Origin: Nostoc sp. PCC 7524
Lineage (GTDB): Bacteria; Cyanobacteriota; Cyanobacteriia; Cyanobacteriales; Nostocaceae
Assembly (NCBI RefSeq): GCF_000316645.1
Contig: NC_019684.1
Coordinates: 1,488,001-1,552,000 of the forward strand
DNA: 64,000 nucleotides
Direction: 5' to 3'
Shown: piece by piece, positions 3,001-20,580 of the stretch
How positions within the stretch are numbered: position 1 is the stretch's first letter
How the letters are laid out: every line of letters begins with the position of its first letter
Translations under genes and position numbers: made by a program
The notes under the pieces: generated by a model
Seen by the model: the letters and a program-made list of their open reading frames with translations, nothing else
The model's database searches: none
What the model was told of the DNA's origin: nothing

Positions 3001-6000
3001 AGGGAAACAGCACCGGCGATCGCGTTAATCTCAGAAACGTCCTGAGCGGTGATAGAAATAGCATGAGCGCGAATTCCCTCAGTCACGCCACCGGCTGTGT
3101 CAATAGCGCGATCGCCCTCAATGGCAGAGGTGACATCCACATCAATCTCATTCTCAGCGAAAACACCAGAACCGCTTACGGCAACCCCGGCTTTCCCCCC
3201 GACTGCTACCCCGGCTGAACCAGCCAGAACGATAGAATTAATCGTTTGTGAACCAATGGCATTGAGGGATAAGTTACCTACGCTGTCAATGCTGGAATTT
3301 TTAATTGTCGCTCCTACTTCCGGTAAGATGCGATCGCTTCCACCTGGTGTAATGCCGATGAAGTTTCTGGCAACGGCAACTCCGATGGATACTCCAACAC
3401 CAGCACTACCACCTCCACCAATGGCGAGAGAAGCAGCAGCAATTGTAGATTGAATAGTTGAGTTACTAGCTGCACTGACTACGACATCCCCGGCACTGAT
3501 CACATCGCTACTGTCGATAGTGGCATTGGTGGTACTGAGGATCACATTCTCAGCCACTGCTCCAGCACCTGAGACAGCAACCCCGTTACCTCCGCCAATG
3601 CCAGCAGCCAGTGATGCTGCTGCGGAAATGGCGTTAATGTTGGTCTGAGTCACCTCTAGAGAATTACCGTTGCGATTGAGAATGTACGTTGTGCCATCAG
3701 GATCAACTACCGCCCAGCGTTGATTTTCTTCAAGGATTGTGACTTTGAGTTTGTCGATTAAGACCCAGTTGCTAGTATTGCCGTAGTTCTCATTACTGAG
3801 GTTAATGTTATTGCGATCGCTACCGACATAACGGTAAACTCGACCTTTCTGACCAGTCCCAGTGAAATCATCGGTGATTTTAACTGTATCCCCTTGCCGC
3901 AGATCTTGACTTTCTGCCTCATTTGTGGTGTATTTGGCTTCTGTGCCGACGGTATCGTTAAAGGAAAGAGTTTTTCCTTGAGAGGTAAAGAGGGAACGAA
4001 TCTTGGCTAGGATTGCCTGATCAGCTATGAGGTCTATGGTATCTTCCGCGATCGCGTTATCAGGGTTATCTTCATCCGCTTTTGCTACATCATCTAATTG
4101 GGCAAAACTCAACCCCGCATTACTCAATTCAGAAGTACTGGCGTTAAATACTGGTCGTCCCTGAGAGGTGGCACTAACGGTAACATCACCGCTTGTAGTC
4201 TCGAAACCATTATCAGCATTCTTAATCGAGGCTTCGACATCATTGGCAATCTCATTAAAGGCAAGGGAGAGTCCCACCGAAACCCCTACCCCTGTGTTTC
4301 CACCAACGGAGGCGGCTAGGGAAGCAGCCCCGGCAATTGCTTCAATGCTTGAAGCATCCGTAGCCGTGAGGCTGGAACTATCAACTTTGATACCTGTTGC
4401 ACCGTCACCATTTACCGTTGCTTTTACTACCGACTGAATAACATTCTCGGCGTAAACTCCTGCACCACTCACCGCAACCCCAGTATTTCCACCACCTGAA
4501 AGAGCAGCAGAAGCAGCAATCACAATGGCATCAATGGTTTGTTCTGCATCCGCATCCACTGTTAATGCACCAGAGGCATTAATACTGGTGTTGGTAATCG
4601 TGGCTTGTACCTGGGCTGCTGAATCACTGAGGTTAATCTGTTCCCAAACGCTAGTATCACCGTAGTTTTGAGTATCGAGATCAATACCTGCGCCATCGCT
4701 TAAGTCAGAGCCAAGATAGCGGTAAACGTCACCACTGCGAGGTCCATTAACAATCTTGACTCGCGTTCCTGTGGTGAGAGTAGTGGGATTTTGATCAGAG
4801 TTAATATCGGCAGATGTATCGTTATCTAGACCATAACCAATAAAGTTGCGTGCTACCGACACCCCAATGGAAACGGCAACCCCTGTACTTGCACCGATAC
4901 CCACCGCAGCCGAAGCAGCCCCGACAATGGCTGAAATTTCAGCATCACTGCTGGCATCGAGGTCAACCGCCCCAACCTGGTTAACAGCCGAGCCAAGGAC
5001 GCTATCTTCTAGATCAGCATTGGTTTTACTCAGGATGACATTCTGAGCAACTGCACCACCTCCAGACACAGCAACACCAGTCCCAGAGAGGGATACCCCT
5101 GCTGCTAAAGAAGCAGCAACGGAGACGGCTTCTATGGTGGCGGTGTCGGTGGCACTCACTTTCACATCCCCACCACTGGTTAAGAGAGTACCAACCCCTT
5201 TGATATATGCCTTGGTTTCATTATCAATTGTATTAAAGGCTAGGGAAAGACCAATTGCTGCGGAAACGGCACTACTAGAAGCCGATATGGAAGCCCCAAT
5301 AGAGACGGCTTGAGCATCGGCACTTACTTTTGATTGGTCACTGGCGGTAACGACGACATCTGTGCCTGTGGTGGTGACTGTGGTGGTATCACCCTCAATG
5401 AAGGCTTTAACTGCCGTTGCTACATAGTTAAATGTGAGGAGACCCGCAGCAGATACTGAGGTAGCACTACCACCACTCAGGGCTGCGGCAACGGTGGTGG
5501 CGTTAATGGTGGCGTTAATATTAGCGGTTGAGGTGGCAGAGACAGTAACGCCATTGGGGGCAGTGACTTGGGAGTTGCGGATATACGCTTGAACGTCTAA
5601 GGGTGTGCGGGTAATGATGTCGCTAAAGCCCATGCGGTTTTCGGCATAGGAGACTCCAATACCGACGGCTGTAGCACTATCTGATCCCAGGGTAACGCCT
5701 ACCGCGATCGCGCCAACTGTAGCGTCAATATCAGCACTATTTGTTGTGGTGACGGTAACTCTACCTGCTTTTACATTGGGACTGTTGGCAATGAAGGCAT
5801 TTGCTCCGCCTAAGATCACGTTAACTGCCGTTGCACCGCCTCCTGCCACACCAATTGACTTATCGGAGAGACTACCCGATAAGGCTACAGCAACAGCGCG
5901 GGAAGTAGCCTGAATGCTGGCTGCTTCATTCGCACTCACGACAATACTGCCGTTATTAGCCTGAACGGAAGTGGCATCAGTAATGAAGGATTGCAGGACA

Positions 6001-9000
6001 TTGCGAATCTCATTCCGGCTAACACTCAAACCCACAGAAACCGAAGTTCCAGACCCAACCCCCGCAGCCACGGCGATGGATGTGGCTTTTACTTCAGAAT
6101 TAATCTGAGATTCATCACTAGCACCAACAATAATGTCCCCATTCCCTGCAATTAATGACTTTGTACCATTCCCATCAAGGGACGCTGCAACGAAGGTACT
6201 GAGTTTATTGAGGGAAACAATCGCTCCCACTGAAATAGCTTTATTGTCGCCAAAGCTGGCTGCAATAGTTGTAGCCGCATTTTCAACGCTGGCATTGATA
6301 TTGGCATTGAGGGTTGCTGTGGCACTGATGCCCCCCGCAGCGTTAATGCTGGTGTTATCGGTATAAGCCTTAACCGTTGCTGGCTGTTCATTGGCAATAT
6401 CAGTACCAAAGAGGGTATCAATGCTATTGAAAAGGATATTCTGAGAAGCAATGCCGATGGTGTTGAAGGACAGAACTACCCCAACTGAAGTTCCGTTAGA
6501 CTTGATGATGCTGTTGACGGTGGCATCAATATCGGAAGTGTTCTCTGCATTGAGGATCACATCGCCATTACTCGTTGTATCGACAGAGCTATTGGTGATG
6601 TAGGCATCAGCACCACTTAGAACTAGGTTAGTGACAATCACGCCGTTAATCGCTAGGGAAGTTCCACCACCAAAGGTACTGCCCCCACTAGAGGTAACGG
6701 TACTTTCATCCTGGGCGAAAATCGTGGCGGTTTCTAAGGCATCAAGCTGCACGTTACCAGCGACATCAACATCGGAGTTGTCTATATAGCTGTCTACATC
6801 ACTGCGGACATCATTGCGGACAACCAGACCGCCAAAGGAGGAGGAGTCAGAGTTGGTAAGATTAAAGCTAACCCCTGGAATGGTTTGTCGTAGGTCAACG
6901 GTGGATAGTTCGCGCCAGCGTGAGGTATTGCTAAAGTCCTCGCTGCTAAGATCCAGGGTGACGGTATCAATAAGTTTCCAGAGAATATCGTTGGCAAAGT
7001 CAATGGTAGAGAGGTCAAGATTTTTTTGGCTGATAGTGCCGAGATATTCATAAACTTCGCCAACTTGAGAATCACCGTTGTTGGCTTTGACTTTGATGCG
7101 ATCGCCTAACTCGATAGCAGCTACAGTGCCATCGGTACTGAGATAGTCAACCTCATCATCTGCGTAGAGTTCATCCGCAATAAATTGATAGACTCCGCCT
7201 GGGGTAAAACTCACTTCTTTCCAGAGGGCGGTATTATTGTAGTTATTTGCACCGAGATTATCTAAGTCTGGGGTAGTCAGGGGTGAAGTGCCGATGTACT
7301 CAAAAACTTGCCCTTGAGTTGCCGTACCGTCAGCAAGATTAAAATCAATTTTGATGCGATCGCCTGCAACAACTTCTGCTGGATCACTGGTGGAACTATT
7401 GTAATCCACATCATCAATGCGAACCTGATCGCTAAAGCCTACTTCTTGCGTCCCTGAGCGGTCAGTAAATTGGTATTCTCCTGCCAACTTATCAACGAAT
7501 TGGGTCAGCAAACTCAGCCCACCATCGTTGGTGGTAGAGGAAATAGCAGCTAACTTACTATTGCTGATAATACTCGCATTATCTTCAGCCAGGATGGTGA
7601 GATTCCCATTCTTGGCATCAATATCATTTTGAACCCCTGTAGTGTCTGTGGTGTCGATAAAGGCATGAGCCTGACTATTAACCAAATTCTGACTAATGAC
7701 CACACCAACGGCCAAACTATCTGCGCCATTTCCTACCCCAAAGGAGTAAGCTGCTGTCTCGGTTTCGTTTGTTACTGTTGCATTCACGCTGGCAGTGGAG
7801 ATGGCTGATAGATGAATTCCACCCGCCGAGTCTATATCCGTATCGCGGATATAAGCTTGAACCAAAGCCGGATTCTGATTGCCAAAGGCATTAGAAATGA
7901 GGGGATCACCAAGAATTGTGTCAATGGCATTAAACAGCCAATTTTGAGAGTCCCAACCAATTTGGTTAAATGCTAAGGTCACGCCCACACCCTTCGCTCC
8001 TGCATTGGTCGCGCTCAAGGTTTTGGCATCAACTGTTGAGGTATTGTTCGCATCAACGGTAACATCACCTGTCGTAGTGGTAACATCACTGTCTTGAATA
8101 AAGGCTTGGGCAGAACTTAATACCCCGTTGGTGGCAATGACTCCATTTACCGCCAGAGAATCACCTTGACCTGTGAAACTGCTACCCCCAGAAGATATTG
8201 CTGTACTGTCTGCTGTTGCCTGAATGGTGGCATTTTCAATCGCATCAATATCTATACTGGCAGCCGTCACAGTGATGCGCTCAATGCGAGCTTCCACATT
8301 ACTCCGCAGGTCGTTGAGGACTACCAGACCCCCGACTGTAGCAGAGTTAGATTCATCAAAATTAATTCCCCCTGGGAACAGTTGGGTTTCTAGGACTTGC
8401 TTCCAGAAGCCAGCATCAGTATAGTTTTGGGTACTGAGGTCGAGGTTTTCCCCAGCTTCATTTGTCCCCATGAACTGATACACACTGCCCGGTTTGCCTA
8501 AATTACTGTCATAGCTATCAGACAACCGTACCCGCTCACCAAATTTAATATCAACCGTGCCTTCGTCGGTGCTAAAGTCAGCAGGGACAAAATCATTAAC
8601 AGTTTCACTCGCAACACCAATGCCACCGTCGTTAGTGGTGACGGAGGAAGCAACAATCTTGGTATTGGCGTAAATCCCAGCATTGTCCTCAGCCTTAACG
8701 ATTACAGTCCCCCCAACAATTACTTCATCAGCATCTGCTCCCAGGACAGGCTGGTCTGCCGTTGTTTCAATGTAGGCTTTCGCGCCACTGTTTACCTTAT
8801 TCATGGCGATGAGTCCGCCGAAGGCTTTACTGGAGGCATTAAAGAGGGCTGAACCTGCTGATTTAGTGGCGTTACTGGCGGTGGCATTCAGTTGAGCAGA
8901 ATTGTCAGCCGTGACTGCTAAATCACCAGCAATATCTAGAAAACTGTTTTTGATAAAGGCTTTCGCTTCAGAAGGGTTTTCACCTCCTAACGCACCAGAA

Positions 9001-12000
9001 ATGAACGGATCGCCGAGAAGTGCCTCTACAGTGTTAAACAGAACATTCTGAGATTTCCAACCCAGGGTATTGAAGGCAAGGGTGATTCCAATACCTTTGT
9101 CCCCAGAGTCGGTGGTGGAGAGGAGGGTAGCATTAATGGCGGAGGTGTTTTGGGCATCAACCGTTAAGTCGCCAGTTGTTCCGGTATTGGTGGTTGTGAT
9201 CTCGCTGTCAAGGATGTAGGCATTTGCCTGACTTTGTACAAGATTAGTGACGATATTGCCATTAACGGCAATTACCTTGCCTTCCCCTAATTCTTTAAAG
9301 GCACTACCACCAGAAGCGGTGACGTTGCTATCGGCGGAGGCGAGGATGGTAGCATTTTCGATGGCTTGAACTTTTACTTCCCCCGCATTGATAGTTGTTC
9401 CTTTGATGTAAGCCTCAACATCAGTGCGTACATCATTAACAACTACCAAAATGCCGTAGGCGCGGGCATCTGAGGCAGTCAGGTTGCCAAAGTTGGGGTA
9501 GCTATCATTAATATCGTCAGCCCCTCCGGTGATCTTTTGCCAACGGTTGGTATTGGTGTAGTCCTCTTTCCCTAAGTCAATTGGGGTTGGAGATGATTCC
9601 TGACCCACATATTTGTAAACTGCCCCTGGATCACCGTAGTCTTCGCCATTGGGTCCTTGGTAGTTAGCGCCGAGACGAACGCGATCGCCCACGAAAAGGG
9701 GTTTGGTTTGTCGTTGCCAGAGGTTGATATCACCGTAGTTTTGCTGAGATAGGTCTACAGGGCTATTGACATCAACACCAATATACTCATAAATCTCACC
9801 ACTGCTACCGCCATTAATATCTTCTTGCAGTTTGACTCGGAATCCTTGTTTGAGAGCATCAACTAAGGTTTCAGTGTTGGAAATGGTACGATCAAAGCCT
9901 GTATTTGTTAAGGCGTTAAATAATGCTGTATCTGAAGAGGAATTGAGTAAATTAATTTCACCAGATGCGGTAGTGTAGGAATATCCATCAGGTAAGAGGT
10001 TGCCAAGGAGCGTGACTACATCGCTGAGGGTGTTAGTGGTAATTGCTTGGGTAGCAACTTTAGTATTGGCATCAATCTGAGCTTCATCTCGTGCTGCAAT
10101 GATGATTGTTCCATCAACTTCAACGATGTCACCACTTTCAGAGTTATCAATGTAGGCTTTCGCCTCACTCTTAACGCGGTTACTCGCTAGAGTCCCACTG
10201 GCACTCATGCCGTTTTTACCATGTTTGGCATTAATTAAGAAGCTGTTGGTGGTGTTTGATACCTGCTCATTACCGATTGTGGCATTGAGAATAGCACTAG
10301 CATCAGAGGTGACACTAAGATTTCTGGCTGCGTCTACTGCTGAATTGAGGATGAAGGCGCGAGCGCCATCTTGTTTGTCTTCGACTAGTCCTGTGAGTAA
10401 GGTATCTCCGAGTAAAGCATCTAGTGCTTGGAAGAGAATGTTGCTGGCATCCCAACCAACGGTATTAATAGCAACAACAACGCCGATAGATTGGCTGGCT
10501 TTGGATTGGGTAAGGGATGTGGCATCGAGACTCGCAACGTTTTGGGCATCGACCACTACATCACCTGTGTTGAGGGTGGTGATTTCACTATCTTCAATGT
10601 AGGCGATCGCCTGACCCTGAAGTTGGTTGGTGGTAATTAAACCTCCGATTGCTTCATTATTGGCTTGGGTAATACTTTGATCAAAGGCAGTCATGGTGGC
10701 AGCTTCAACTGCGCTGACTTCAATGGCGTTGACTTTACGCCAGAGATTGCGATCGCGATAGTCTTCAGTGGTTAAATTAATTGCCTCAAGGCGCTCTTCA
10801 CCCACATACTCATAAATTTCCCCAGCCTTGGCTGCACCAATATCAGTTGTCAGTTTAACCCTAGTTCCTACCTTTAGCTCATTCGCTGTCTCACTACTGA
10901 GCAAGTCAGCCACAATATTACCTGCTGCATCAACATCCGCATTGTCGATGTAACTTACCACCTGCCCCTGGACATCATTACGAATCACAGCCCCGTAGTA
11001 GCTCTTACCTGTGCCGATGCTTTTGCCAAAAGCTTTAACTGCTGCTTCAGCGACCTTGGAGGGAATGAGGTTATCGTCGTTAACAACTTTCCACCGCTCG
11101 AAGTTACTGAAATCTTCACTCTCTAAATTAACACTACTCTCATCTGCTCCCATAAACGTAAAGAGTTGACCTACGGTTTCTTGGGTTGGGTCAACTGCAT
11201 TATCAGGTAAGCCATAGTCAGAAGCTACAAATACTTTATCGCCGAAAACCAGATCCTGAGTTCCAGACTTAGTAGTGTATTGGTACTCAGACTTGAGATT
11301 ATTCACCAAGTCATTGAGTAGGTTAGCCCCTAACTGATTCGTCTTGGTTGCTGTGTTGCCTAAAGAAGTGAAGGCATCCATCCCCGAAGCATCATCTGCC
11401 AGAACACTGACACTACCTTCTGCTTGAATTGTGCCTTGCTCGGCGGTAAATTCAATAAAGGACTTGGCGAGTCCACTGACTTTATTGCTGGCCAAAATTC
11501 CGCTACCACTCATGCCATTAGCACCATAGAAGGCTGCTGCTTTGGCTGTGGCATCATTACTCACTGTGGCATTGAGTTGTGCGGTGGCATCTGCTGTAAC
11601 GATAATATCCCCCGCCGAGTCAACATTAGTGTCTCGAATGTAAGCCTGGGCGCGAGCCGGAATCTCGTTACCGAAGGGGGATTTGACTTCAATCCAGTGA
11701 GCGCGATCGCTGTAATCTTCGCTATTGAGATTGACGTTGGTGCGATCGCCGATTGCTTGATATACTTCCCCTGTTATTAGCTTCACCCAATCCCCATCAT
11801 TGAGATTAACGGGTTCAGATATGCCATCATTCAGGTCATAATCAACCAGTAACCCTTCAAGTTCATCAGTTAATTCTGAGAGACCAAGGAGAGAATCAAG
11901 GGTATTGAAGAGAAGGTTGCGGGAGTCATAGCCCATGCTGTTGAAAGCCAACAAAACACCCACTGCATCAGCCCCAGATGTCGTGGCAGCCAGGGTTTGG

Positions 12001-15000
12001 GCATCCATTTGAGAGTTGTTAACAGCATCAATAATGACATTACCCCCATTCTTGGTCGTAACCTCAGCATTATCAATATAGGCATCGGCTTTAGTCAGCA
12101 GGACATTGGTGGCGATGATGCCGTTGTAAGCTTGGGACTTTCCTCTCCCAAAGATATCGCCCCCAGAAGATTCCACAGTAGTGTCAGCAATGGTTTCCAT
12201 GAGGGCATTCTCAGTGGCTGAAACCTTGATATCTCCATCGGCTTCAACCACTGTATTCTTAATGGCTGCTTCTACGGTGCTATCCAGTTCAGTGAAAACT
12301 ACCACACCCCCGACTGCTTGGGAGTCCGAAGGAGTAAAGTTGTTTCCTTGGGGAATAAGTTGGGTTTCTAAGACTTCTTTCCAGTAGTCAGTATTGCTGA
12401 AGTCTTCGGTAGTGAGATTGCGAGTGTCTGCTGGATTTCCACCTTTACCCATATATTCATACACACTGCCAGCATTACCCCCGGCTGTGTGATTATTGGC
12501 AAGACGAATGCGATCGCCGTATTCTAGATTCCGTTGCCCTTCGCTGCTTACAAAGTCCACAGTTAGAGCGTCACTAATCTGCTCATCAAGGACACTAGCT
12601 CCCCCATCGTTGGTGGTGATTGAGGATGAAACTAATTTGACATTGGAGTAAAGCTCTACGTTATCAACGGCGGAAACGAGGATATTGTCACCTGCATCAA
12701 CACTAGGAGTATTGGGGTCAAAGGTTAAATCTTCGTTGTTAATGAGGGCAGTGGCTGAACTCTTAACTTTGTTACTGGCTACAATACCGCCAGCAGCTTT
12801 ACCGCCAGCATCGAAGAGGGCTGAGGCTGCCGAACTAGCAGCATTGCTAACGGTAGCATTCATCTTGGCAGCGTTATCCGCTAAAACATTAACCTCTCCT
12901 CCTATATCCAAGGAAACGTTGGTAATTGTTGCGGTTGCATTTGCGCCAGTATCTAAGCCAAAGATATCGGAAACAAGGGGATCGCCAATCGAAGCTTCTA
13001 CCGTTCCTAGCAGGACTCCACTCGCTTCCCAACCCAGTGTATTTAAGGCGACGACAGCACCAAAGGCGGTGTCTCCTGAGAGGGTAGCAGCATTAATGGT
13101 GGCATCCACACCGGAGGTATTCATCGCTGCAACGGTAATATCTCCAGTTGTGGTTACTGACCCTCCAGAGACGGCTGCATCGGCTTGGGCTTGAACAATA
13201 TTCGTGGCAATTAAACCATTAGCTGCAAAAACCTTACCTTCTCCTAGCTCTTTGAAGGCACTCCCTCCTGATGCTGAGATAGAGCTTTCCATAAATGCTT
13301 GGAGTTTGGCATTCTCCACCGCTTTGACGATGACTTCGCTAGCGTTCACCGTTGTATTTCTAATGGTGGCATCCACATCACTACGAACATCGTTGAGTAC
13401 CACCAAACCGCCGTAAGCGCGAGCATCGGAGGCACTCAAGTTACCAATGTTTAGCCCCAAATCTTCAACGCCAAGATTGACTTTTTCCCAGCGAGAACTG
13501 TTGAAGTTTTCCTGACTTAAATCAATTGATTCTCCAGATGTTCCACCCTGGAATTCGTAAACACTGCCCTCTGCGAGACGAACGCGATCGCCTACTAGCA
13601 GGTTTTTAGTATTAGGATCAGCATCTTCACCCACAGTGACAGAACCTGATGCTGTGGTGTATTTATAGTCGTTTGCACCCAGAGCAACCGCCACATCAAC
13701 CAAAGCATTAAGATTATTCGTAGCGATCGCATCTACCGCCAAGCGGCTATCCGCAACAATTCCAGCTTTATCTTGGGCATAGACTTCAACTGTGCCACCA
13801 ACTGTAACGGTGCGAGAACCAGTGTAATCGTTAGAGTAGTCAATCCAAGCTTGAGCTTCACTACTTACCTTGTTACTGGCGAGCATTCCCCCGGCTGCCA
13901 TCGCTTTTTTACCATAGGCAGTGTTGATCAAGAAAGAATTGGTAGGGGTAGAGGCTTGTTCATTGCCCGTTGTCGCCTTCATGATCGCACTAGAATCTGC
14001 TAGAACGTGCAAGTCGCCGTCAGCAGTAACGGTGGAATCTTGAATGTAAGCATAAGCTCTTGCTGGATCTTCCCCAGTTAGTAGCTCTCTCCCCAGCAAG
14101 GAATCTATGGCTTGGAAGAGAACATTGGAAGCTTCCCAACCTAATGTGTTGAAGGAAACGACAACCCCGACTGATTCCTCACCCTTAGATCTGGTTAAAG
14201 AAGTTGCTTCTAGGGCAGAAACGTTAGTAGCTTCAACTCGTACTTCCCCGTCACCACCTGCTTGCTGAATACTGCTGTTGGTAATATAGGCATCAGCACT
14301 ACTGCGAAGCTGATTATTGGTCAGCACTCCCCCTTTACTATTGGAGACGGAGCTTATAACACTGGTATCAATGGCTCTCAGGGAGACTGATTCAAGGGCA
14401 TTGATGACGACATTTGCCAGTCCACTATTAACATCGTTTGGCGTTGCCAGAACGGCATGATCAAGGTAGGCTACAACATCACTATCAATGTCATTGCGGG
14501 CAACTACGCCATAGAAGCTTTTCGCTTTTCCAGGATCGAGCTTGTTATCTTTGAGAATAGCGGTGGAGATTGAGGAGGGGATGACATTGTTCTCGCTCAG
14601 TTCTTTCCAAAACTCAAAATTGTTGTAGTCTTCGGTAGCGAGATTGCGATTGTCCTCTGTGCTTCCCCCTGCTCCCATGTATTGATAGACTGTACCTGCC
14701 TTACCTGCAATTAAACGCCAGTTCCCATCAGTGAAATCAACATCGGTATTAAAGTCCACTTTACCCAGCAAGCTAGTGCCGTTGATGTCGGTATTTCCCA
14801 AGTATTCGTAAATTTGCCCTTCCTTCCCATTCCCCACGTCGGAGGAGAGTTCGATCCAATCCCCTTGGGTAATGACACTGGGGGCGTTCTTAGTGGTAGC
14901 GTCAACATCATCAAGGCGAACTTTGTCGCCAAATCTTAAACCTTGTGTGCCTGAGTTGCTGGTGTATTGGTAATCCCCGGTCAAGGTATTGAAGAGATCA

Positions 15001-18000
15001 TTGATGATCCCTAGCCCCAGGTCATTTTTCTTGGAGGCTGCTGCTACCATGTTCGTGGTAGCGTCAATGGCAGCATCATCTACCGCAGAGATGGTGAGAT
15101 TCCCAGCAACTTTAATGTCAACGGTGTTTGTAGCGTTCTCACCACTGTCGATGAATGCTGTGGCTTCTGAACTAACTTTGTTACTGGCAAGTACACCGCT
15201 CATGGTCATGGCATTCGCCCCGAAGAGCGCAGATGCTGCTGCGGTAGCACTATTGCTGGTGCGGGCTTCTATCTGCGCCAGGGAATTGGCGGTAACGGTG
15301 AGATTTCCATCGGTGGAAATATCGGAGTTGCGGATATATGCTTCAACTTTTGCTGGTTCTTCGTTGCCAAAGACAGGTAAGACGGGAATCCACAAAAGAC
15401 TAGTGGCGTAACTTTGGGCGCTGTTAGATAAGTCTGGATTGGCGACATCACCGCCTTCGTAGCGATAGATGATATCACCCACTTTAACGCGATCATTTTC
15501 CTGTAAAAGGTCTGGCGTGTCAGTGGTTTCGTAGTCAAATTCATTGGGGGCTAATCCGAACAGAGCATCCAAGGTGTCATAGAGGAGATTCTGGGACTGA
15601 TAGCCAATGGTATTAAATGCCAGAACTACACCATAGGCATCTGCTCCTGTATTGATTGCACTCTTAGTCTCTGCCCCTAGTTGGGCTGTGTTTTCTGCCT
15701 TAACTTCAATATCACCAGTGGTTATCACCTCACTATTTTCAATGTAGGCGATCGCGTCACTGAGAACACTGTTGACGGCAATTGTGCCATTGCCAGCGAT
15801 AGATTTCCCTGTACCAAAGGCACTACCCCCAGAAGATTGGGCGGTGGCATCTGCTACTGCCTGGATAACTGCCTCTTCCCTGGCGGTAACGTTAACAGTA
15901 TTAGCTCCAATGTCTGCATTCTTGATATAAGCAGTAGCCCCCCCATCAACTTCATTGCGAACTACCATCCCCCCAATGGCAACAGAGTTAGAATCACTCA
16001 GATTCATGCCATCGTTTTGAATCTGCGTAGCCAGAAGTTCTTTCCACAGGTCGAGATTGTTGTAGTTTTCAGTTAGCAGATCAGCCGTGTAACCATTTTC
16101 CCCCAGATAGGTGTAAGTACGTCCTGATTCACCGAGAGATTTGTCAAAGTTCATTGACAGCGAAACAGTATCACCAAAGTTTATTATCTTTGTTGAGTTA
16201 CCTGGTGTTAAAGATGCTGTGGTGTAAGTTGGGTTGCCAAACAGAGGAATCAGGGCAGCAGCACCATCATTAAGAACATCAATGCCTCCAGTATTGGTTG
16301 TTACCTGGGAAGTGACAATCTTGCTATTGGAGAAGATACCAGCGCGATCAGTTGCTTTAACCGTTAGAGTTCCTTTTGCTTCCAGTTTCTTGCCGTCTGC
16401 ATCCAGCGCATCTTCCACAAAAGCGAGGGCGGCACTGGCAACCTGATTACTCGCTACCAGACTGCCTACAGCTGTGCCATTGCTGTTAATTAGCGCTTGA
16501 CCCGTGGAATCTGAAATGTTGCTAACAGTGGCGTTAATTTGTTGCGCTCCATCTGCTGTGACTGTGACATCGCCACTGTTGATCTTAGTATTTTTAATAT
16601 AGGCTGTGGTATCAGCACCTATTACCTCGCTATCACTGCCTAACTCAATTCCTGTGAGAGTTTCAAAGGTTTTACCGAGTAAGTTACCAAGACTAAAGGC
16701 ACTATCTGGGGCAATTGAGAGTAATACAGTAGGGCTAGGCTTGCCAATTGAGTTAAAGGCGAAGGTAAAAGCACCTGTGGTATTAGAACCCCCTTGTGCC
16801 TTGGCTGTAGCTTCCGATGTGGCATCAATTGACGAGGTATTACTAGCATTAACCCCAAGATTACCGTTTGCTGCTGTAATGCTACTATCGAGAACGTAGG
16901 CAGAAACATCACCGGAAATTTCGTTCAAGGCAAATGTTCCGCCAAGACTGAGGCTGGATAGGTTCGCTAATGTTCCCAACAAACCGAAATCGGTAATTGC
17001 CATTGCATTTGCTTCCGCCTTAATGGCTTGACTGTTGGCAGCATTGATGGTGATGTTGCCGTTTGTGGCATTTAGGGAAGAACTGTCGGAAACGTAAGCC
17101 TGAGTATTTTTGATGACCTTATTAGTTGCAGAGGCTTTGCCAAACTCTACTCTTGTCAGTGACGAGAGGTCTAGATTTGGCTGCTGTAAATCTCGCGATC
17201 GCGCTGTGTAACTTGAGTTATCTGTCGCCAAAACCGTAATCGCTTCGCCATTTGCCCCTGGGTCAGCATTAACGGTACTGCCAATAATGTATGCCTGGGT
17301 ATCACCAACTACTGCGTTACTAGCAATCTTAGCCTCGGCAGTGTAGCTCGAATTGTTGGTTGCTAATACTTCTAGAGTTTTAGTCTGAAGATTGACATTG
17401 GTAACATTAGCAATTACATCATCCTGAGTCACGGAAGTTGAGTGAACACCCAAGAAATCAGAATCAATTGTGCTGGTAATATTCCCTGTTGCGGTTGCTA
17501 AAACCTCAACCCCCCCGGTGGCTGAGACACCATCTTTACCAACGACTGTCGTGGCTACTAAGGAGTCACCTATGTAGGCTTTGGTATCACGAGCTAGAGT
17601 AATGTCACTCTGGACTGCATCAAATCCAATTACATTACTAATGTTAGTGTCAGTGGTGATTTTGGTTTGAAGGTTTGTGTTGTCTGTGGCAATAACAGAG
17701 ATGCTATTTGGATCAGAAATTACACCAGCATTGATGGTTGCACCACCGTCAATTCCAGCATAGGTAGTGATTGAGATGGGTTTGATATTTGTGGTGACAT
17801 CAATACTTCCACTGAGGCTAGTTCCTGCGATATCAGCATAGTCAAGGCTGCCGTCGTCAAAGCTAGAACCGCTCTGCTCAAAAGACTCTCCTGCCAACAA
17901 CTGCGCTAATAATATCAAACCATAATAATGATTTTCAATAAAGCTAGATGCTTCAGGTTGCAGAATACTATCGGGATTGACATATAAATCTAACTGTCCC

Positions 18001-19775
18001 AAAGTACCATTGTAACCTAATATATCGCTGGTGTGGATAGCAACCACCCGTGTAGCATCGCTACTATTGAGCCGTTCTGCTTCTCCTCGACCTAATGCGC
18101 CCTCAAACTCTGGTCCAGCAGGGTCTAGTCCAATAATTAGATTAAGGGAATTTCCAGTAAGCTCTTGATATTTTGCCCCAGCATTACCACTGACATGAGC
18201 GCCTAAACTACTACCAATTAAAGTGATGGTGGTGGGGTTAAGACCTGTTAGATTATTGGCAAGAAAGCTACCCAGGGCATTACCAACTCGCAGGGTATCA
18301 TCGGCTGCGGTGGGATAGTCAAGATTACCAGCCAGATCACTCCAGTCAACGAAGATAATATTGACATTTCCGCCTTCTTTGTCCTGAATTGACTGGAATA
18401 GCTGGTCATAATTAGCACTTGATTTAATATCAGATTGCCAACCGTGAGTGACTACATAGGTCGGATTGGTTGGATTAAATTCGTTGGCATCGTCAGCATC
18501 CCAAAGGTAGAACTTAACTGAGGCATCCCCTAAGTTGTCCTCTTGTAGCAGGGCAAAGTTGGCGTTGCTGCGAGTCTGGCTATTACCGCCTAAACTTACC
18601 GATTCAACGGTTGCATCCGTAAGCTGCACGTTAAAGTCAGTATTGGTTTCAGCAATGACTTCTAGATTATCGGCTTTAATCGTAGCGGTTGAACCAATAA
18701 TCGCAGTGGCTTCGGAGGTGGAGTTGACCTGAAAGGATGTATTTGAGGCGTTGAAGGTTAAGTTGTTGTGAATGCGTGCTTCTAGCTTGACTTTTCCAGC
18801 TTCGATTGTGCCATCAACGGTTATATTGGCTGTGAGTTCAACTGGTTTGAGATCGCTAGTTTGGTTGATGTTGCTAGTCGCGATCGCGCTTAATGTAACG
18901 TCTCCTGTTGTTGCAATTTTAGTAGTAGAAGGAACAATAATTGTTTCCGCGCTTAAAGATAAACTGTCACCATTGAGGTAAAGATTTCTGGCAAAATTAA
19001 CTGTGTCTGCACCAGCATCTCCATCAATCTCTAAAACCCCATCTCCCACCGTAAAGAGATTATTACTATTGCCAATATTATTAAAGGTAAAAATATCGTT
19101 TCCTGTACTACCAATGATTTTCTCAATGCTAGTCGTCTTGATGTTTGCAGAATTGGTACTATCTGTAACTACAATTTCTAGAACTCCAGAACTAAACTCA
19201 GAAATACTGAAGCTTAGGGCAGTGGTAAGGTTAGCAAAACTCAGGGTATCAAATCCGCTTGAGCCATTTATTTCTAAAGTAGTTCCCCAGTCACTTTGTT
19301 GAAAGGTAAAGGTATCATCATTAGTGCTAGGGGAACCTAATAATAAAATTCCACCATAGTTATCTAAAGCTTGCTTACTCAACACAGAAAGAGATTCAAA
19401 ATCCGTCCCTACTAAAGTATCTATATCCGTCCCTACTAAAGTATCTATTCTTCCTAATAATGGATCTATACTCCCTACTAACCAATCTCCCCCTACCAAC
19501 GCATCTATACCTGTAATCTCTGTCAATTGACTCTCAGGTAACGCCACACTCAGGTAATCTACAGGGAAAACTCCCCTGGTGAGACTCAGATCCAACCTAT
19601 TTGGGTACACAGATACAAACTCATCTAGAACAAGAGTGAATTCTGTGTTTTGCCCTAGTGGAGAATTTGCTGAAGCTAGAGGACTAGTTTCTAAGCCATC
19701 TAAAGCTAGAGGACTAGTTTCCAGTCCATCTAAAACGGAAAAATTCTGAGCATTGAGGTTAGAGAAATTTTCCAT
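1..19775 (-). CDS. Giant beta-strand-repeat surface/secreted protein with internal lipase domain (3' end beyond window)
   Basis: The ATG is at 19775-19773 and the same frame reads sensible protein at 15545 and down to base 3, so at least 6,590 codons are visible; the C-terminus lies outside the window. There is no classical signal peptide. Residues 1-130 are acidic, with short tandem duplications (LETSPLA and DTLVGTD). An RTX-like stretch (GSTGNDIFTF) follows, then a lipase-type domain at about 405-630. After that come thousands of residues of modules of the type VSVARN-I...VxAYIxNSxI...GDVxVxAxSxxxI, rich in Ala, Val, Ser, Thr, Asn and Gly and almost free of Cys, as in beta-solenoid adhesins. 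Modules with Y-x-Y-x-G...W interrupt the middle part. The family resemblance is to giant 'beta strand repeat' or hemagglutinin-like proteins. Function (adhesion, envelope or matrix) is inferred. A sapC gene lies 58 bp upstream. Confidence 0.85.
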   Translation of the reverse strand, partial: MENFSNLNAQNFSVLDGLETSPLALDGLETSPLASANSPLGQNTEFTLVLDEFVSVYPNRLDLSLTRGVFPVDYLSVALPESQLTEITGIDALVGGDWLVGSIDPLLGRIDTLVGTDIDTLVGTDFESLSVLSKQALDNYGGILLLGSPSTNDDTFTFQQSDWGTTLEINGSSGFDTLSFANLTTALSFSISEFSSGVLEIVVTDSTNSANIKTTSIEKIIGSTGNDIFTFNNIGNSNNLFTVGDGVLEIDGDAGADTVNFARNLYLNGDSLSLSAETIIVPSTTKIATTGDVTLSAIATSNINQTSDLKPVELTANITVDGTIEAGKVKLEARIHNNLTFNASNTSFQVNSTSEATAIIGSTATIKADNLEVIAETNTDFNVQLTDATVESVSLGGNSQTRSNANFALLQEDNLGDASVKFYLWDADDANEFNPTNPTYVVTHGWQSDIKSSANYDQLFQSIQDKEGGNVNIIFVDWSDLAGNLDYPTAADDTLRVGNALGSFLANNLTGLNPTTITLIGSSLGAHVSGNAGAKYQELTGNSLNLIIGLDPAGPEFEGALGRGEAERLNSSDATRVVAIHTSDILGYNGTLGQLDLYVNPDSILQPEASSFIENHYYGLILLAQLLAGESFEQSGSSFDDGSLDYADIAGTSLSGSIDVTTNIKPISITTYAGIDGGATINAGVISDPNSISVIATDNTNLQTKITTDTNISNVIGFDAVQSDITLARDTKAYIGDSLVATTVVGKDGVSATGGVEVLATATGNITSTIDSDFLGVHSTSVTQDDVIANVTNVNLQTKTLEVLATNNSSYTAEAKIASNAVVGDTQAYIIGSTVNADPGANGEAITVLATDNSSYTARSRDLQQPNLDLSSLTRVEFGKASATNKVIKNTQAYVSDSSSLNATNGNITINAANSQAIKAEANAMAITDFGLLGTLANLSSLSLGGTFALNEISGDVSAYVLDSSITAANGNLGVNASNTSSIDATSEATAKAQGGSNTTGAFTFAFNSIGKPSPTVLLSIAPDSAFSLGNLLGKTFETLTGIELGSDSEVIGADTTAYIKNTKINSGDVTVTADGAQQINATVSNISDSTGQALINSNGTAVGSLVASNQVASAALAFVEDALDADGKKLEAKGTLTVKATDRAGIFSNSKIVTSQVTTNTGGIDVLNDGAAALIPLFGNPTYTTASLTPGNSTKIINFGDTVSLSMNFDKSLGESGRTYTYLGENGYTADLLTENYNNLDLWKELLATQIQNDGMNLSDSNSVAIGGMVVRNEVDGGATAYIKNADIGANTVNVTAREEAVIQAVADATAQSSGGSAFGTGKSIAGNGTIAVNSVLSDAIAYIENSEVITTGDIEVKAENTAQLGAETKSAINTGADAYGVVLAFNTIGYQSQNLLYDTLDALFGLAPNEFDYETTDTPDLLQENDRVKVGDIIYRYEGGDVANPDLSNSAQSYATSLLWIPVLPVFGNEEPAKVEAYIRNSDISTDGNLTVTANSLAQIEARTSNSATAAASALFGANAMTMSGVLASNKVSSEATAFIDSGENATNTVDIKVAGNLTISAVDDAAIDATTNMVAAASKKNDLGLGIINDLFNTLTGDYQYTSNSGTQGLRFGDKVRLDDVDATTKNAPSVITQGDWIELSSDVGNGKEGQIYEYLGNTDINGTSLLGKVDFNTDVDFTDGNWRLIAGKAGTVYQYMGAGGSTEDNRNLATEDYNNFEFWKELSENNVIPSSISTAILKDNKLDPGKAKSFYGVVARNDIDSDVVAYLDHAVLATPNDVNSGLANVVINALESVSLRAIDTSVISSVSNSKGGVLTNNQLRSSADAYITNSSIQQAGGDGEVRVEATNVSALEATSLTRSKGEESVGVVVSFNTLGWEASNVLFQAIDSLLGRELLTGEDPARAYAYIQDSTVTADGDLHVLADSSAIMKATTGNEQASTPTNSFLINTAYGKKAMAAGGMLASNKVSSEAQAWIDYSNDYTGSRTVTVGGTVEVYAQDKAGIVADSRLAVDAIATNNLNALVDVAVALGANDYKYTTASGSVTVGEDADPNTKNLLVGDRVRLAEGSVYEFQGGTSGESIDLSQENFNSSRWEKVNLGVEDLGLNIGNLSASDARAYGGLVVLNDVRSDVDATIRNTTVNASEVIVKAVENAKLQAFMESSISASGGSAFKELGEGKVFAANGLIATNIVQAQADAAVSGGSVTTTGDITVAAMNTSGVDATINAATLSGDTAFGAVVALNTLGWEASGVLLGTVEASIGDPLVSDIFGLDTGANATATITNVSLDIGGEVNVLADNAAKMNATVSNAASSAASALFDAGGKAAGGIVASNKVKSSATALINNEDLTFDPNTPSVDAGDNILVSAVDNVELYSNVKLVSSSITTNDGGASVLDEQISDALTVDFVSSEGQRNLEYGDRIRLANNHTAGGNAGSVYEYMGKGGNPADTRNLTTEDFSNTDYWKEVLETQLIPQGNNFTPSDSQAVGGVVVFTELDSTVEAAIKNTVVEADGDIKVSATENALMETIADTTVESSGGDIFGRGKSQAYNGIIATNVLLTKADAYIDNAEVTTKNGGNVIIDAVNNSQMDAQTLAATTSGADAVGVLLAFNSMGYDSRNLLFNTLDSLLGLSELTDELEGLLVDYDLNDGISEPVNLNDGDWVKLITGEVYQAIGDRTNVNLNSEDYSDRAHWIEVKSPFGNEIPARAQAYIRDTNVDSAGDIIVTADATAQLNATVSNDATAKAAAFYGANGMSGSGILASNKVSGLAKSFIEFTAEQGTIQAEGSVSVLADDASGMDAFTSLGNTATKTNQLGANLLNDLVNNLKSEYQYTTKSGTQDLVFGDKVFVASDYGLPDNAVDPTQETVGQLFTFMGADESSVNLESEDFSNFERWKVVNDDNLIPSKVAEAAVKAFGKSIGTGKSYYGAVIRNDVQGQVVSYIDNADVDAAGNIVADLLSSETANELKVGTRVKLTTDIGAAKAGEIYEYVGEERLEAINLTTEDYRDRNLWRKVNAIEVSAVEAATMTAFDQSITQANNEAIGGLITTNQLQGQAIAYIEDSEITTLNTGDVVVDAQNVASLDATSLTQSKASQSIGVVVAINTVGWDASNILFQALDALLGDTLLTGLVEDKQDGARAFILNSAVDAARNLSVTSDASAILNATIGNEQVSNTTNSFLINAKHGKNGMSASGTLASNRVKSEAKAYIDNSESGDIVEVDGTIIIAARDEAQIDANTKVATQAITTNTLSDVVTLLGNLLPDGYSYTTASGEINLLNSSSDTALFNALTNTGFDRTISNTETLVDALKQGFRVKLQEDINGGSSGEIYEYIGVDVNSPVDLSQQNYGDINLWQRQTKPLFVGDRVRLGANYQGPNGEDYGDPGAVYKYVGQESSPTPIDLGKEDYTNTNRWQKITGGADDINDSYPNFGNLTASDARAYGILVVVNDVRTDVEAYIKGTTINAGEVKVQAIENATILASADSNVTASGGSAFKELGEGKVIAVNGNIVTNLVQSQANAYILDSEITTTNTGTTGDLTVDAQNTSAINATLLSTTDSGDKGIGITLAFNTLGWKSQNVLFNTVEALLGDPFISGALGGENPSEAKAFIKNSFLDIAGDLAVTADNSAQLNATASNATKSAGSALFNASSKAFGGLIAMNKVNSGAKAYIETTADQPVLGADADEVIVGGTVIVKAEDNAGIYANTKIVASSVTTNDGGIGVASETVNDFVPADFSTDEGTVDIKFGERVRLSDSYDSNLGKPGSVYQFMGTNEAGENLDLSTQNYTDAGFWKQVLETQLFPGGINFDESNSATVGGLVVLNDLRSNVEARIERITVTAASIDIDAIENATIQATADSTAISSGGSSFTGQGDSLAVNGVIATNGVLSSAQAFIQDSDVTTTTGDVTVDANNTSTVDAKTLSATNAGAKGVGVTLAFNQIGWDSQNWLFNAIDTILGDPLISNAFGNQNPALVQAYIRDTDIDSAGGIHLSAISTASVNATVTNETETAAYSFGVGNGADSLAVGVVISQNLVNSQAHAFIDTTDTTGVQNDIDAKNGNLTILAEDNASIISNSKLAAISSTTNDGGLSLLTQFVDKLAGEYQFTDRSGTQEVGFSDQVRIDDVDYNSSTSDPAEVVAGDRIKIDFNLADGTATQGQVFEYIGTSPLTTPDLDNLGANNYNNTALWKEVSFTPGGVYQFIADELYADDEVDYLSTDGTVAAIELGDRIKVKANNGDSQVGEVYEYLGTISQKNLDLSTIDFANDILWKLIDTVTLDLSSEDFSNTSRWRELSTVDLRQTIPGVSFNLTNSDSSSFGGLVVRNDVRSDVDSYIDNSDVDVAGNVQLDALETATIFAQDESTVTSSGGSTFGGGTSLAINGVIVTNLVLSGADAYITNSSVDTTSNGDVILNAENTSDIDATVNSIIKSNGTSVGVVLSFNTIGIASQNILFNSIDTLFGTDIANEQPATVKAYTDNTSINAAGGISATATLNANINASVENAATTIAASFGDNKAISVGAIVSLNKLSTFVAASLDGNGTKSLIAGNGDIIVGASDESQINSEVKATSIAVAAGVGSGTSVSVGLSVSRNEIRNVLQSFITDATSVQANNGSIVVSANEAASIQATSRAVAVALSGSLSDKSIGVAGGGATAVNVILGGANAFIANSPNVKAGRVTVTTTNSADIDATVGAIAVGVTLGSDSATAVGIGVSYAENRMGFSDIITRTPLDVQAYIRNSQVTAPNGVTVSATSTANINATINATTVAAALSGGSATSVSAAGLLTFNYVATAVKAFIEGDTTTVTTTGTDVVVTASDQSKVSADAQAVSIGASISASSSAVSAAIGLSLAFNTIDNETKAYIKGVGTLLTSGGDVKVSATDTATIEAVSVAASLAAGVSLSGTGVAVSGGGAVAQNVILSKTNADLEDSVLGSAVNQVGAVDLDASSDAEISAIVGAASAAVGIGASTGVAVSIGVSVARNFIGYGLDNDTSADINSDQNPTTLTTGTRVKIVNGPRSGDVYRYLGSDLSDGAGIDLDTQNYGDTSVWEQINLSDSAAQVQATITNTSINASGALTVDADAEQTIDAIVIAASAALSGGGNTGVAVSGAGVYAENVIQSVVKATVNGDGATGIKVDSSSLTATDASSIEAIAGAASLAASVGGNTGVGVSVGLSLAFNEIANDVEASIKNADNGFETTSGDVTVSATSQGRPVFNASTSELSNAGLSFAQLDDVAKADEDNPDNAIAEDTIDLIADQAILAKIRSLFTSQGKTLSFNDTVGTEAKYTTNEAESQDLRQGDTVKITDDFTGTGQKGRVYRYVGSDRNNINLSNENYGNTSNWVLIDKLKVTILEENQRWAVVDPDGTTYILNRNGNSLEVTQTNINAISAAASLAAGIGGGNGVAVSGAGAVAENVILSTTNATIDSSDVISAGDVVVSAASNSTIQSTIAAASLAIGGGGSAGVGVSIGVAVARNFIGITPGGSDRILPEVGATIKNSSIDSVGNLSLNAIGSQTINSIVLAGSAGVAVGGKAGVAVSGSGVFAENEIDVDVTSAIEGDRAIDTAGGVTEGIRAHAISITAQDVSEINAIAGAVSLAASIGGKAGVSVSVGVSLAKNTITSSVEAAILNADNGVQTTGGDITIAAVQAGSIAATSSAASLAAGLAGLAGIAVSGAGAEATNIIHANTNAYIDSSTIESAGNVDLDANSTSTIDATIISAAFSLAVGGIAGVGASIGAALATNKIGDGTENTGQVQAYIEDSSITNADALTIDAVANQEIDALVLAGSVAIAGGTVGVGLAGAGASASNQIAANIGAYIDGDGTEGISVDSVTINTDDTSTITANTGSAAVAASFGLAGASIAVGAAIATNTINNQVEAYIQNADELTASVGNITITADEIANITALTAAASVAVSISIISGGAGALAVTEAINTLTTHVTAAIANSTVTANGEVKVQAQDTSTVDSETIAFAGSGSFVSLSAGVVLAQNEIGNNVTAHITNSTVTAEAEGDISVIATSTPTIETLSEVGAVALGFGGSGAGGSAETIINGTTEAYVDSSNLTAIDNEIIVSADSTTTAKPEIKGLSVGLIGVTVMESQVTLDGETRAYLTGTSTVDANKLDILAEDQVTATPVTEIGAGGAITISTTKSTVNITRTTAAEVSSGADITLTNGDLNVLATADISGTTNTSSKTFSAADIAVNTVDTTLNNTTRAAIASGATVRSAQGAVKVDANATNQAESEIESLGVGLLLKVGTSNPTATVNSITEALIDGVVTGITADGKAGNVTINATAVDQAAAGAKTAGGGLISVGVANVAANITSTVSAFAGGTIQSANNIQITAISQTDADADSESSSGGAVDVTTLNATATSNPTIRADIGSNAILEAGLGVVVNAVHGQDPPTFSDGSFSATTGVNSSSNTITFANNHGLLTGDTVTYNQNSQTTPVGGLTDGREYGIIKSSDQAFQLGTIFNSLDFEDNPVIDVDRDTINFSGRHNLQDGDRVIYTANEAIVGGLISGKTYEVRYINDTTIKLIDPDNPPATAQKFSGNNINVGSDTTIISLDNHNFSDGQAITYRAPKATVFSSPSIDVTGTGE
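640..6400 (-). repeat. Short beta-module array in the giant protein
   Basis: Downstream (C-terminal side) of the large composite repeats the protein continues as simpler modules of roughly 70-90 residues. Each reads approximately AxSLAIGxGGxAGVGVSVGVSVARNxI, cut here into parts: a Gly/Ala/Val-rich stretch, then ARN or AEN plus a hydrophobic pair, then VxAYIxNSxI, then GDVxVxA. Only near 3680-3980 and 4620-4830 do Y-x-Y-x-G modules interrupt it. The pattern suggests regular solenoid turns. Confidence 0.65.
6400..16750 (-). repeat. Large composite protein repeats (about 370-500 residues each) in the giant protein
   Basis: A signature of the form FNTIGWxSQNxLFNxxDxLFG recurs about nine times. 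Its plus-strand positions are near 16675, 15580, 14115, 13010, 11910, 10430, 9040, 7940 and 6430. The spacings fall into two classes, about 1.1 kb and 1.4-1.5 kb. The long spacings carry extra Y-x-Y-x-G...DY.N...W modules. A second marker (GGI/GGA..V..TTNDGG followed by SKIV..) recurs near 16290, 12610, 8630 and 7520, which points to a still larger three-unit period of about 3.7-4.0 kb. The array probably grew by duplication of multi-module blocks. Confidence 0.7.
17885..18565 (-). other. Embedded pancreatic-lipase-family alpha/beta-hydrolase domain
   Basis: Within the giant protein (residues about 405-630) the order of motifs matches the animal-type (PF00151-like) lipases. YVVTHGW forms the oxyanion-side strand. 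IGSSLGAHVSG is the nucleophile elbow, with Ser523 at 18209-18207. GLDPAGPEFEG carries the acid Asp551 at 18125-18123. HTSDILGYNG and LGQLDLYVN match the conserved HT...G..DFYPN region, and ENHYYG supplies a candidate His616 at 17930-17928. The Ser-to-Asp gap is 28 residues and Asp-to-His 65, so the lid region would be short. The elbow has Ser where most relatives have His before the nucleophile. Activity and substrate (lipid or ester) are inferred. Confidence 0.75.
19401..19733 (-). repeat. Short in-frame tandem duplications at the N-terminus of the giant protein
   Basis: Two direct repeats lie in the first 130 codons. A 24-bp unit occurs twice in tandem at 19401-19424 and 19425-19448 (protein DTLVGTDI). 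A 30-bp unit occurs twice at 19674-19703 and 19704-19733 (protein LETSPLALDG). Both are multiples of three and keep the frame open. They look like recent slippage duplications in an acidic leader. Confidence 0.8.
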
Positions 19776-19833: not shown

Positions 19834-20580
19834 CTATTCAGCCTCAGAATTTGACACCTTAGTACCTTTCTTGGCAAGTTGAGAGAAAAGGTTTAGAGAA
19901 TGGAGGTGCAGATAAATTAGTTCTAACCAGCCTGTTTGCATTAAGCCAAATACTTGTTCTTGCGAGAGTTTGTTGAGCTTGTCACGACTAATTCCCCAAA
20001 AACCACTCAAAGAAGATTTTTTCCCTTCATTGGTTGTAAACTGAGCCTGCATTGGTTCTAGTAAATCCAGTTCTTTAATCTGTTGGCAAAACGCTTCTGT
20101 CACTCGAAACTGTGCTTGATAAATCTGGAGGAAATTAATGACATTATTTAAATATTGAGTTTGATTTCCATCGCTGTCGAACAGTCGTTCCCCTGAGCCT
20201 GTTTGATTCCAACCGGAAAATTTTTCATCAATACAGAGCGTAAAGGTTTTACCATCGTCTCCGCTAGAGAACACAAAAGGATAGCGCCGGATAAAGGCAG
20301 GAATATAGTCTGCTTGCCACTCTCCTGCTTCATTAATAAATAAGTTTTTTTGCTCTTGAAGTCCTACAATCGCTGCTGGCATTAATGTTTCTTCTGTACC
20401 AACAAAAACAATAGGGTAGATTGATGCAGATTGAGCAAATTCAGCACTCAGCAAGGGAAACGAGTTCACCTGTTCTGTAAAGAAATACTTATTGTCCATT
20501 TTCAGCGACCAGTCGCGATGCTGCTCTTTGGAAATGGAAACTACGTGCTTGTAAATTAATAGCTGATTAGACAACTGCAA
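19834..20580 (-). CDS. sapC: SapC family protein
   Basis: A 248-residue protein that matches the SapC family (PF07277) along its whole length. The N-terminal LLIYKHVVSISKEQHRDW is followed by NSFPLLSAEFAQSASIYPIVF, and then in separate blocks ADYIPAFIRRYPFVF, GERLFD, TEAFCQQIKELDLLEPMQAQ and WLELIYLHLHSL, all typical of the family. The start is supported because the family homology begins within the first ten residues. SapC was named from the S-layer secretion locus of Campylobacter; its biochemical role is not settled. It is soluble, with no signal peptide or membrane helix. It lies 58 bp upstream of, and on the same strand as, the giant repeat protein, so the pair probably forms an operon and SapC may help the giant protein reach the surface. 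That role is inferred. Confidence 0.85.
   Translation of the reverse strand: MQLSNQLLIYKHVVSISKEQHRDWSLKMDNKYFFTEQVNSFPLLSAEFAQSASIYPIVFVGTEETLMPAAIVGLQEQKNLFINEAGEWQADYIPAFIRRYPFVFSSGDDGKTFTLCIDEKFSGWNQTGSGERLFDSDGNQTQYLNNVINFLQIYQAQFRVTEAFCQQIKELDLLEPMQAQFTTNEGKKSSLSGFWGISRDKLNKLSQEQVFGLMQTGWLELIYLHLHSLNLFSQLAKKGTKVSNSEAE

Follow-up and report, generated by a model that had tools for sequence, protein, structure and literature searches.

Phospholipases A1 of the PF00151 lipase family are best known from animals, where they occur in venoms, digestion and lipoproteins. Among bacteria, many giant surface proteins are, to our knowledge, without an assigned function. Giant genes occur in planctomycetes, according to the available text of PMC5352709. 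Our literature search, with type V passenger lipases outside the comparison, found no paper on a fusion of a lipase to such a giant. It did bring up two reviews on autotransporters in which lipase domains are mentioned alongside adhesins, and two papers in which LEPR-XLL occurs. Here we describe one in the cyanobacterium Nostoc sp. PCC 7524, in a stretch of 64,000 nucleotides (contig NC_019684.1, positions 1,488,001 to 1,552,000; hereafter the window, to which all positions refer). The protein, here called the giant, is encoded on the minus strand, starts at position 19775 and carries a lipase domain near its N-terminus. It is a new combination of known kinds, PF00151 lipases and giant repeat proteins, and no new category. 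With moderate confidence, we interpret it as a secreted, likely surface-held enzyme of the phospholipase A1 type on a giant repeat protein.

Read on beyond the window in the genome, the open reading frame (ORF) encoded 11,414 amino acids (aa), without an internal stop or cysteine. This full frame confirmed the fusion of a lipase to a giant repeat protein, as proposed in an earlier note based on the window. The note had placed the domain at 17885..18565; a lipase domain was found there, and it extends further, to about residue 660 (residues 404-660, 17796..18566, minus strand like all parts of the giant). As the note had expected of a hidden Markov model search, residues 391-614 matched PF00151 well above the cut-off (102.7 bits vs 27, E 3.4e-29). 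The genome (6.72 Mb) has no other PF00151 match, and Pfam gave no other family in residues 1-5000 of the giant. All four motifs named in the note were at their places in the translation: HGW (residues 444-446, 18438..18446), which we take to be the oxyanion-strand motif; the GSSLGAH nucleophile elbow (residues 521-527, 18195..18215) with Ser523 (18207-18209); GLDPAGP (residues 549-555, 18111..18131) with Asp551 (18123-18125); and NHYY (residues 615-618) with His616 (17928-17930). Judged from the sequence, the motif set and the family match are far beyond chance.

In an alignment of 56 rows, the GxSxG serine, the aspartate and the histidine were in order and aligned. The serine and the aspartate were found in all 56 rows and the histidine in 54, with His616 in the same column as the histidine of the animal rows. 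Structure prediction, also proposed in the note, gave an alpha/beta-hydrolase with high confidence, nearest to structures of the pancreatic-lipase family (11 of the 27 named loci were in the underlying alignment). In the model, Ser523 is located at a strand-helix elbow and Asp551 after the next strand. By sequence, the nearest solved structure was that of hornet phospholipase A1 (PDB 4qnn, E 2e-18). The lipoprotein lipase equivalog TIGR03230 was not matched at its cut-off (62.5 bits vs 822.75).

The giant's lipase shares its predicted fold, motif order and Ser-Asp-His triad with hornet venom phospholipase A1 and with pancreatic and lipoprotein lipases, and its Asp-to-His spacing of 65 with two insect phospholipase A1 rows (P0037, P0038). 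As in the hornet enzyme, the beta9 loop (14 residues counted from HT, residues 581-594, 17994..18035) and the lid stretch from QP to His616 (residues 606-616, 17928..17960) are short. The beta9 stretch measured 14 residues in the giant, 15 in both an insect phospholipase A1 row and a lipase-H row, and 20 in a hepatic lipase row; QP-to-His measured 11, 14, 19 and 29 in the same four. Two other bacterial-type rows that were measured had a beta9 loop and a lid just as short. The giant's lipase therefore has the short beta9 loop and short lid by which the phospholipase A1 subtype was defined. According to the available part of PMC7240578, both elements are short in some social wasp and ant venom phospholipases A1, and small lids or beta9 loops accompany weak or no triglyceride hydrolysis. 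On these grounds, a preference like that of a phospholipase A1 or a galactolipase is a reasoned prediction for the giant's lipase. Unlike the hornet enzyme and the PF00151 family, the giant has no cysteine and hence no disulfides, has no PLAT domain by Pfam in residues 1-5000, and embeds its lipase in an 11,414-aa bacterial protein. The domain also groups with bacterial-type sequences.

This grouping was seen in a quick maximum-likelihood tree of 70 domains out of 81 gathered entries, whose long branches limit its reading. Nine entries were too short and were left out, P0028 and P0031 were removed manually, and 12 of the 27 named loci were taken. Fourteen animal or animal-like rows split from all others (97% in the Shimodaira-Hasegawa-like approximate likelihood ratio test, SH-aLRT), and the giant's lipase fell into a 20-row group with C-terminal fusions and other giants (97%). 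The term animal-type lipase in the earlier note thus holds for the pancreatic-lipase family, but not for the placement of the domain, which is bacterial-type. Given the separation of the animal rows in this tree, a recent capture from an animal is not supported.

Four database proteins of 2,237-4,097 aa (P0047-P0050) have the same order of N-terminal flank, lipase and C-terminal flank as the giant, and the triad is intact in all five. Searched with the lipase region of the giant, proteins of ~3.6-11.5 kaa yielded P0047 alone (45% identity over 98%). A search from P0047 among proteins of ~2.0-6.4 kaa added P0048-P0050, plus P0051 of a different architecture. Since only the candidates with the most shared words were scored in these searches (821 and 1,899), four is a lower bound for the number of co-linear relatives. 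In alignments of the giant with P0047-P0050, additional matches ran through the repeats, and LktA_tand_53 repeats were found in P0047, P0049 and P0050, the relatives on which the repeat model was run. The four proteins are shorter than the giant, perhaps cut by contig ends. P0047, P0049 and P0050, the three with a complete start, begin with a LEPR-XLL domain over the cut-off, which was not matched in the giant; P0048 is without that end. By eye, LETSPLASAN of the giant is near the position of LEPRILMSAD in P0049. In giant bacterial surface proteins, an in-line catalytic module that is kept in relatives gives a testable enzymatic role.

The part of the giant in the window (3..19775) encodes residues 1-6591; the frame runs on below window position 1 for another 4,823 residues. 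The leader (residues 1-264, 18984..19775) has LETSPLA repeats where the relatives have LEPR-XLL, a resemblance seen by eye. It had been called RTX-like in the note, a description that hardly fits: one GxxGxD-type motif was counted in residues 1-290. In a simple pattern count, the full 11,414 aa contained three GGxGxD, and no arrays of RTX nonapeptides (GGxGxDxUx) were found. The N-terminal beta-strand flank (residues 265-390, 18606..18983) and the C-terminal beta flank (residues 661-860, 17196..17795) are conserved with P0047-P0050. The LktA_tand_53-type repeat region follows (3..17195) and continues outside the window. The tandem-53 repeat model NF012206 of NCBIfam reached 371 and 317 bits (cut-off 50) in two overlapping pieces of the protein, with 22 stretches in residues 1-5000 and 16 in residues 4501-9258. 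Beyond these repeats, Pfam detected FG-GAP, PKD, DUF4114 and bacterial Ig domains. Of the giant putative adhesin in the note, the giant with its repeats and FG-GAP, PKD and Ig domains was found; adhesion itself would be a function suggested by these domains.

Among 386 cyanobacterial genomes, the C-flank profile (at most eight candidates scored per listed genome) had a full match only in the host genome itself (300 bits); G205, which was not among the PF00151-bearing genomes, matched weakly and in part (35.5 bits). A query with the leader and N-flank against 192 genomes of the host's family (at most nine candidates scored per listed genome) returned the host genome and a weak match in G505 (E 9.9e-5) only. 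No orthologous giant lacking the lipase was thus recovered from a sister species. In G505, which was not among the 43 family genomes with a lipase-domain match, locus L098 (G505:C122:14000-33900) contains a giant ORF, 3602 aa or longer, whose leader resembles that of P0047 (by eye) and whose repeats match those of the giant. This locus hints that the lipase may be an optional insert in such giants.

The lipase domain is also found in other cyanobacterial proteins. PF00151 was present in 17 of the 386 genomes (five with the domain in an ORF of at least 2,000 aa) and in three of 13 genomes of the genus. The domain query matched 43 of the 192 family genomes; in 12 of them, the host included and some matches being weak, the ORF had at least 2,000 aa. 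In L076-L081, the lipase is C-terminal in large proteins of 629-2,754 aa, several of which have RTX-like repeats ahead of it (by eye). These lipases and stand-alone ones of ~450 aa are 40-53% identical to the giant's, which in contrast is near the N-terminus, and no leader or flank common to them and the giant was seen. By sequence comparison, then, fusion of this lipase to a large protein is not a one-off, which answers the note's call for a count: the fusion recurs, in the four co-linear relatives and in the cyanobacterial large proteins, and among the 386 cyanobacterial genomes the C-flank profile matches in full only here. No record matched for carriage on a plasmid. The patchy occurrence of the 34-kb gene suggests horizontal spread or frequent loss. 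Two further loci differed in their lipases. L084 (G404:C13) has two lipase-family domains in one 2029-aa ORF, at residues ~159-363 and 759-913. L092 (G162:C3:4000-11807; a 1176-aa ORF, truncated where the sequence read stops) has GHGLGAH and NASG at the nucleophile and aspartate motifs, and its lipase-like domain is probably inactive.

Short ORFs with the same domain raise the first alternative, that the giant's lipase serves nutrition, as a secreted lipase or esterase of general use that scavenges lipids or fatty acids from outside, with the repeats as a mere tether. The lipase ORF had at most 477 aa in all 27 named loci (three cut by contig ends) and 449-477 aa in 12 of them; ORFs of 443-478 aa were found at 20 strong places, or 21 with one weak, among 50 listed. 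Several of the short-ORF translations have an RTX-like tail (by eye), and these proteins look like free exoenzymes. The short lid and beta9 loop, however, speak against triglyceride digestion, and we would argue that a 34-kb tether is costly for scavenging alone. We consider this explanation unlikely.

Next to the giant, a SapC-family gene (PF07277, 245 bits, E 6.1e-73; 19834..20580, minus strand) lies upstream on the same strand, its end 58 bp from the ATG of the giant. In Campylobacter, PMC3887049 describes sapC as part of the Sap transporter. SapC is rare in cyanobacteria: it was found in eight of the 386 genomes, seven over the cut-off. Eight of the nine listed places were inspected, the weak one being left out. 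At four of them (G000, G007, G087, G130) its neighbour is a giant or a long ORF resembling a surface protein, the partners other than the giant itself being judged by eye from ORFs running off the stretch read. In G007, peptidase-ABC-like and HlyD-like ORFs lie ~12-16 kb from SapC (by eye). The SapC-family neighbour is likely an export accessory.

For catalysis, substrate, export route, surface location and target, we infer the following model. The giant would leave the cell through one of its host's type I secretion systems, perhaps aided by the adjoining SapC-family protein. A long beta filament would form from its LktA-type repeats, and attachment to surfaces or neighbours would fall to the PKD, Ig and FG-GAP domains at the far end. 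The triad Ser523-Asp551-His616 would then cut membrane glycerolipids, whether phospholipids or galactolipids, at their sn-1 ester, where the filament holds the enzyme. With the N-terminus on the cell side, the lipase would be beside the envelope of the producer itself; with the C-terminus there, it would be at the tip, ~10,700 residues away. More speculatively, and with rather low confidence, the giant might belong to an undescribed class of contact weapons or envelope remodellers in this cyanobacterium and other hosts: LEPR-XLL-type giants with SapC-partnered export and a phospholipase A1-type enzyme at one filament end, cutting the membranes of cells captured by the far end. A contact toxin of the kind with a C-terminal toxin was excluded, as the lipase is near the N-terminus.

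The anchored end of the giant decides between attack and self-remodelling, and the second alternative builds on this. The enzyme would act on the producer's own envelope, in outer-membrane lipid remodelling or filament release. In LapA-type adhesins the N-terminus is the cell-side end, and the same orientation in the giant would place its N-terminal lipase by its own outer membrane. On the other hand, the sequence alone does not fix which terminus is anchored, and related lipases elsewhere are C-terminal (L076-L081) or mid-protein. This explanation appears somewhat less probable than the nutritional one.

Several results weigh against the interpretation as a surface-held enzyme of the phospholipase A1 type on a giant repeat protein. 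In the free tree, the giant's lipase joined P0023 and P0051 (support 85) and not P0047-P0050, but holding the five giants as one clade gave a better likelihood and was not rejected (p-AU 0.661). With E values of up to 10 allowed, residues 1-592 gave no match to the LEPR-XLL model NF012209, in a scan whose filters dropped most weak matches. The flank structure model was of moderate quality (pLDDT 76.5, pTM 0.55), and the filament and adhesion roles are read from domain names only. At four of the eight places, no giant could be recognised in the 1.5 kb flanking SapC. The near neighbours included no recognised gene for type I secretion (partly by eye), and the five HlyD-type ORFs over the cut-off in the genome are not near the giant; of 14 control genomes, 13 also had a match to the HlyD model at E up to 0.001, and one had a match over the cut-off. 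Near the catalytic residues, the giant has GSSLG around Ser523, where 45 of the 56 rows have GHSLG, and Gly at residue 619, directly after NHYY, where 39 have Ala. These less common residues beside Ser and His, and the lost nucleophile of L092, from which it follows that decay occurs in this lipase family, would fit a catalytically dead domain or one retained for structure as a lipid-binding module, but the intact triad in the giant and its four co-linear relatives and the high-confidence predicted fold make this improbable.

The other near neighbours of the giant were housekeeping-like (MgtE, carbamoyltransferase, sensor kinase), and rhomboid-like and response-regulator-like ORFs were seen by eye on its far side. 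Photosystem I core genes are present in the host genome, as befits a cyanobacterium. Past the 3' end of the giant, outside the window, a transposase-like ORF was seen by eye (L002 55-1728), a possible mobile element.
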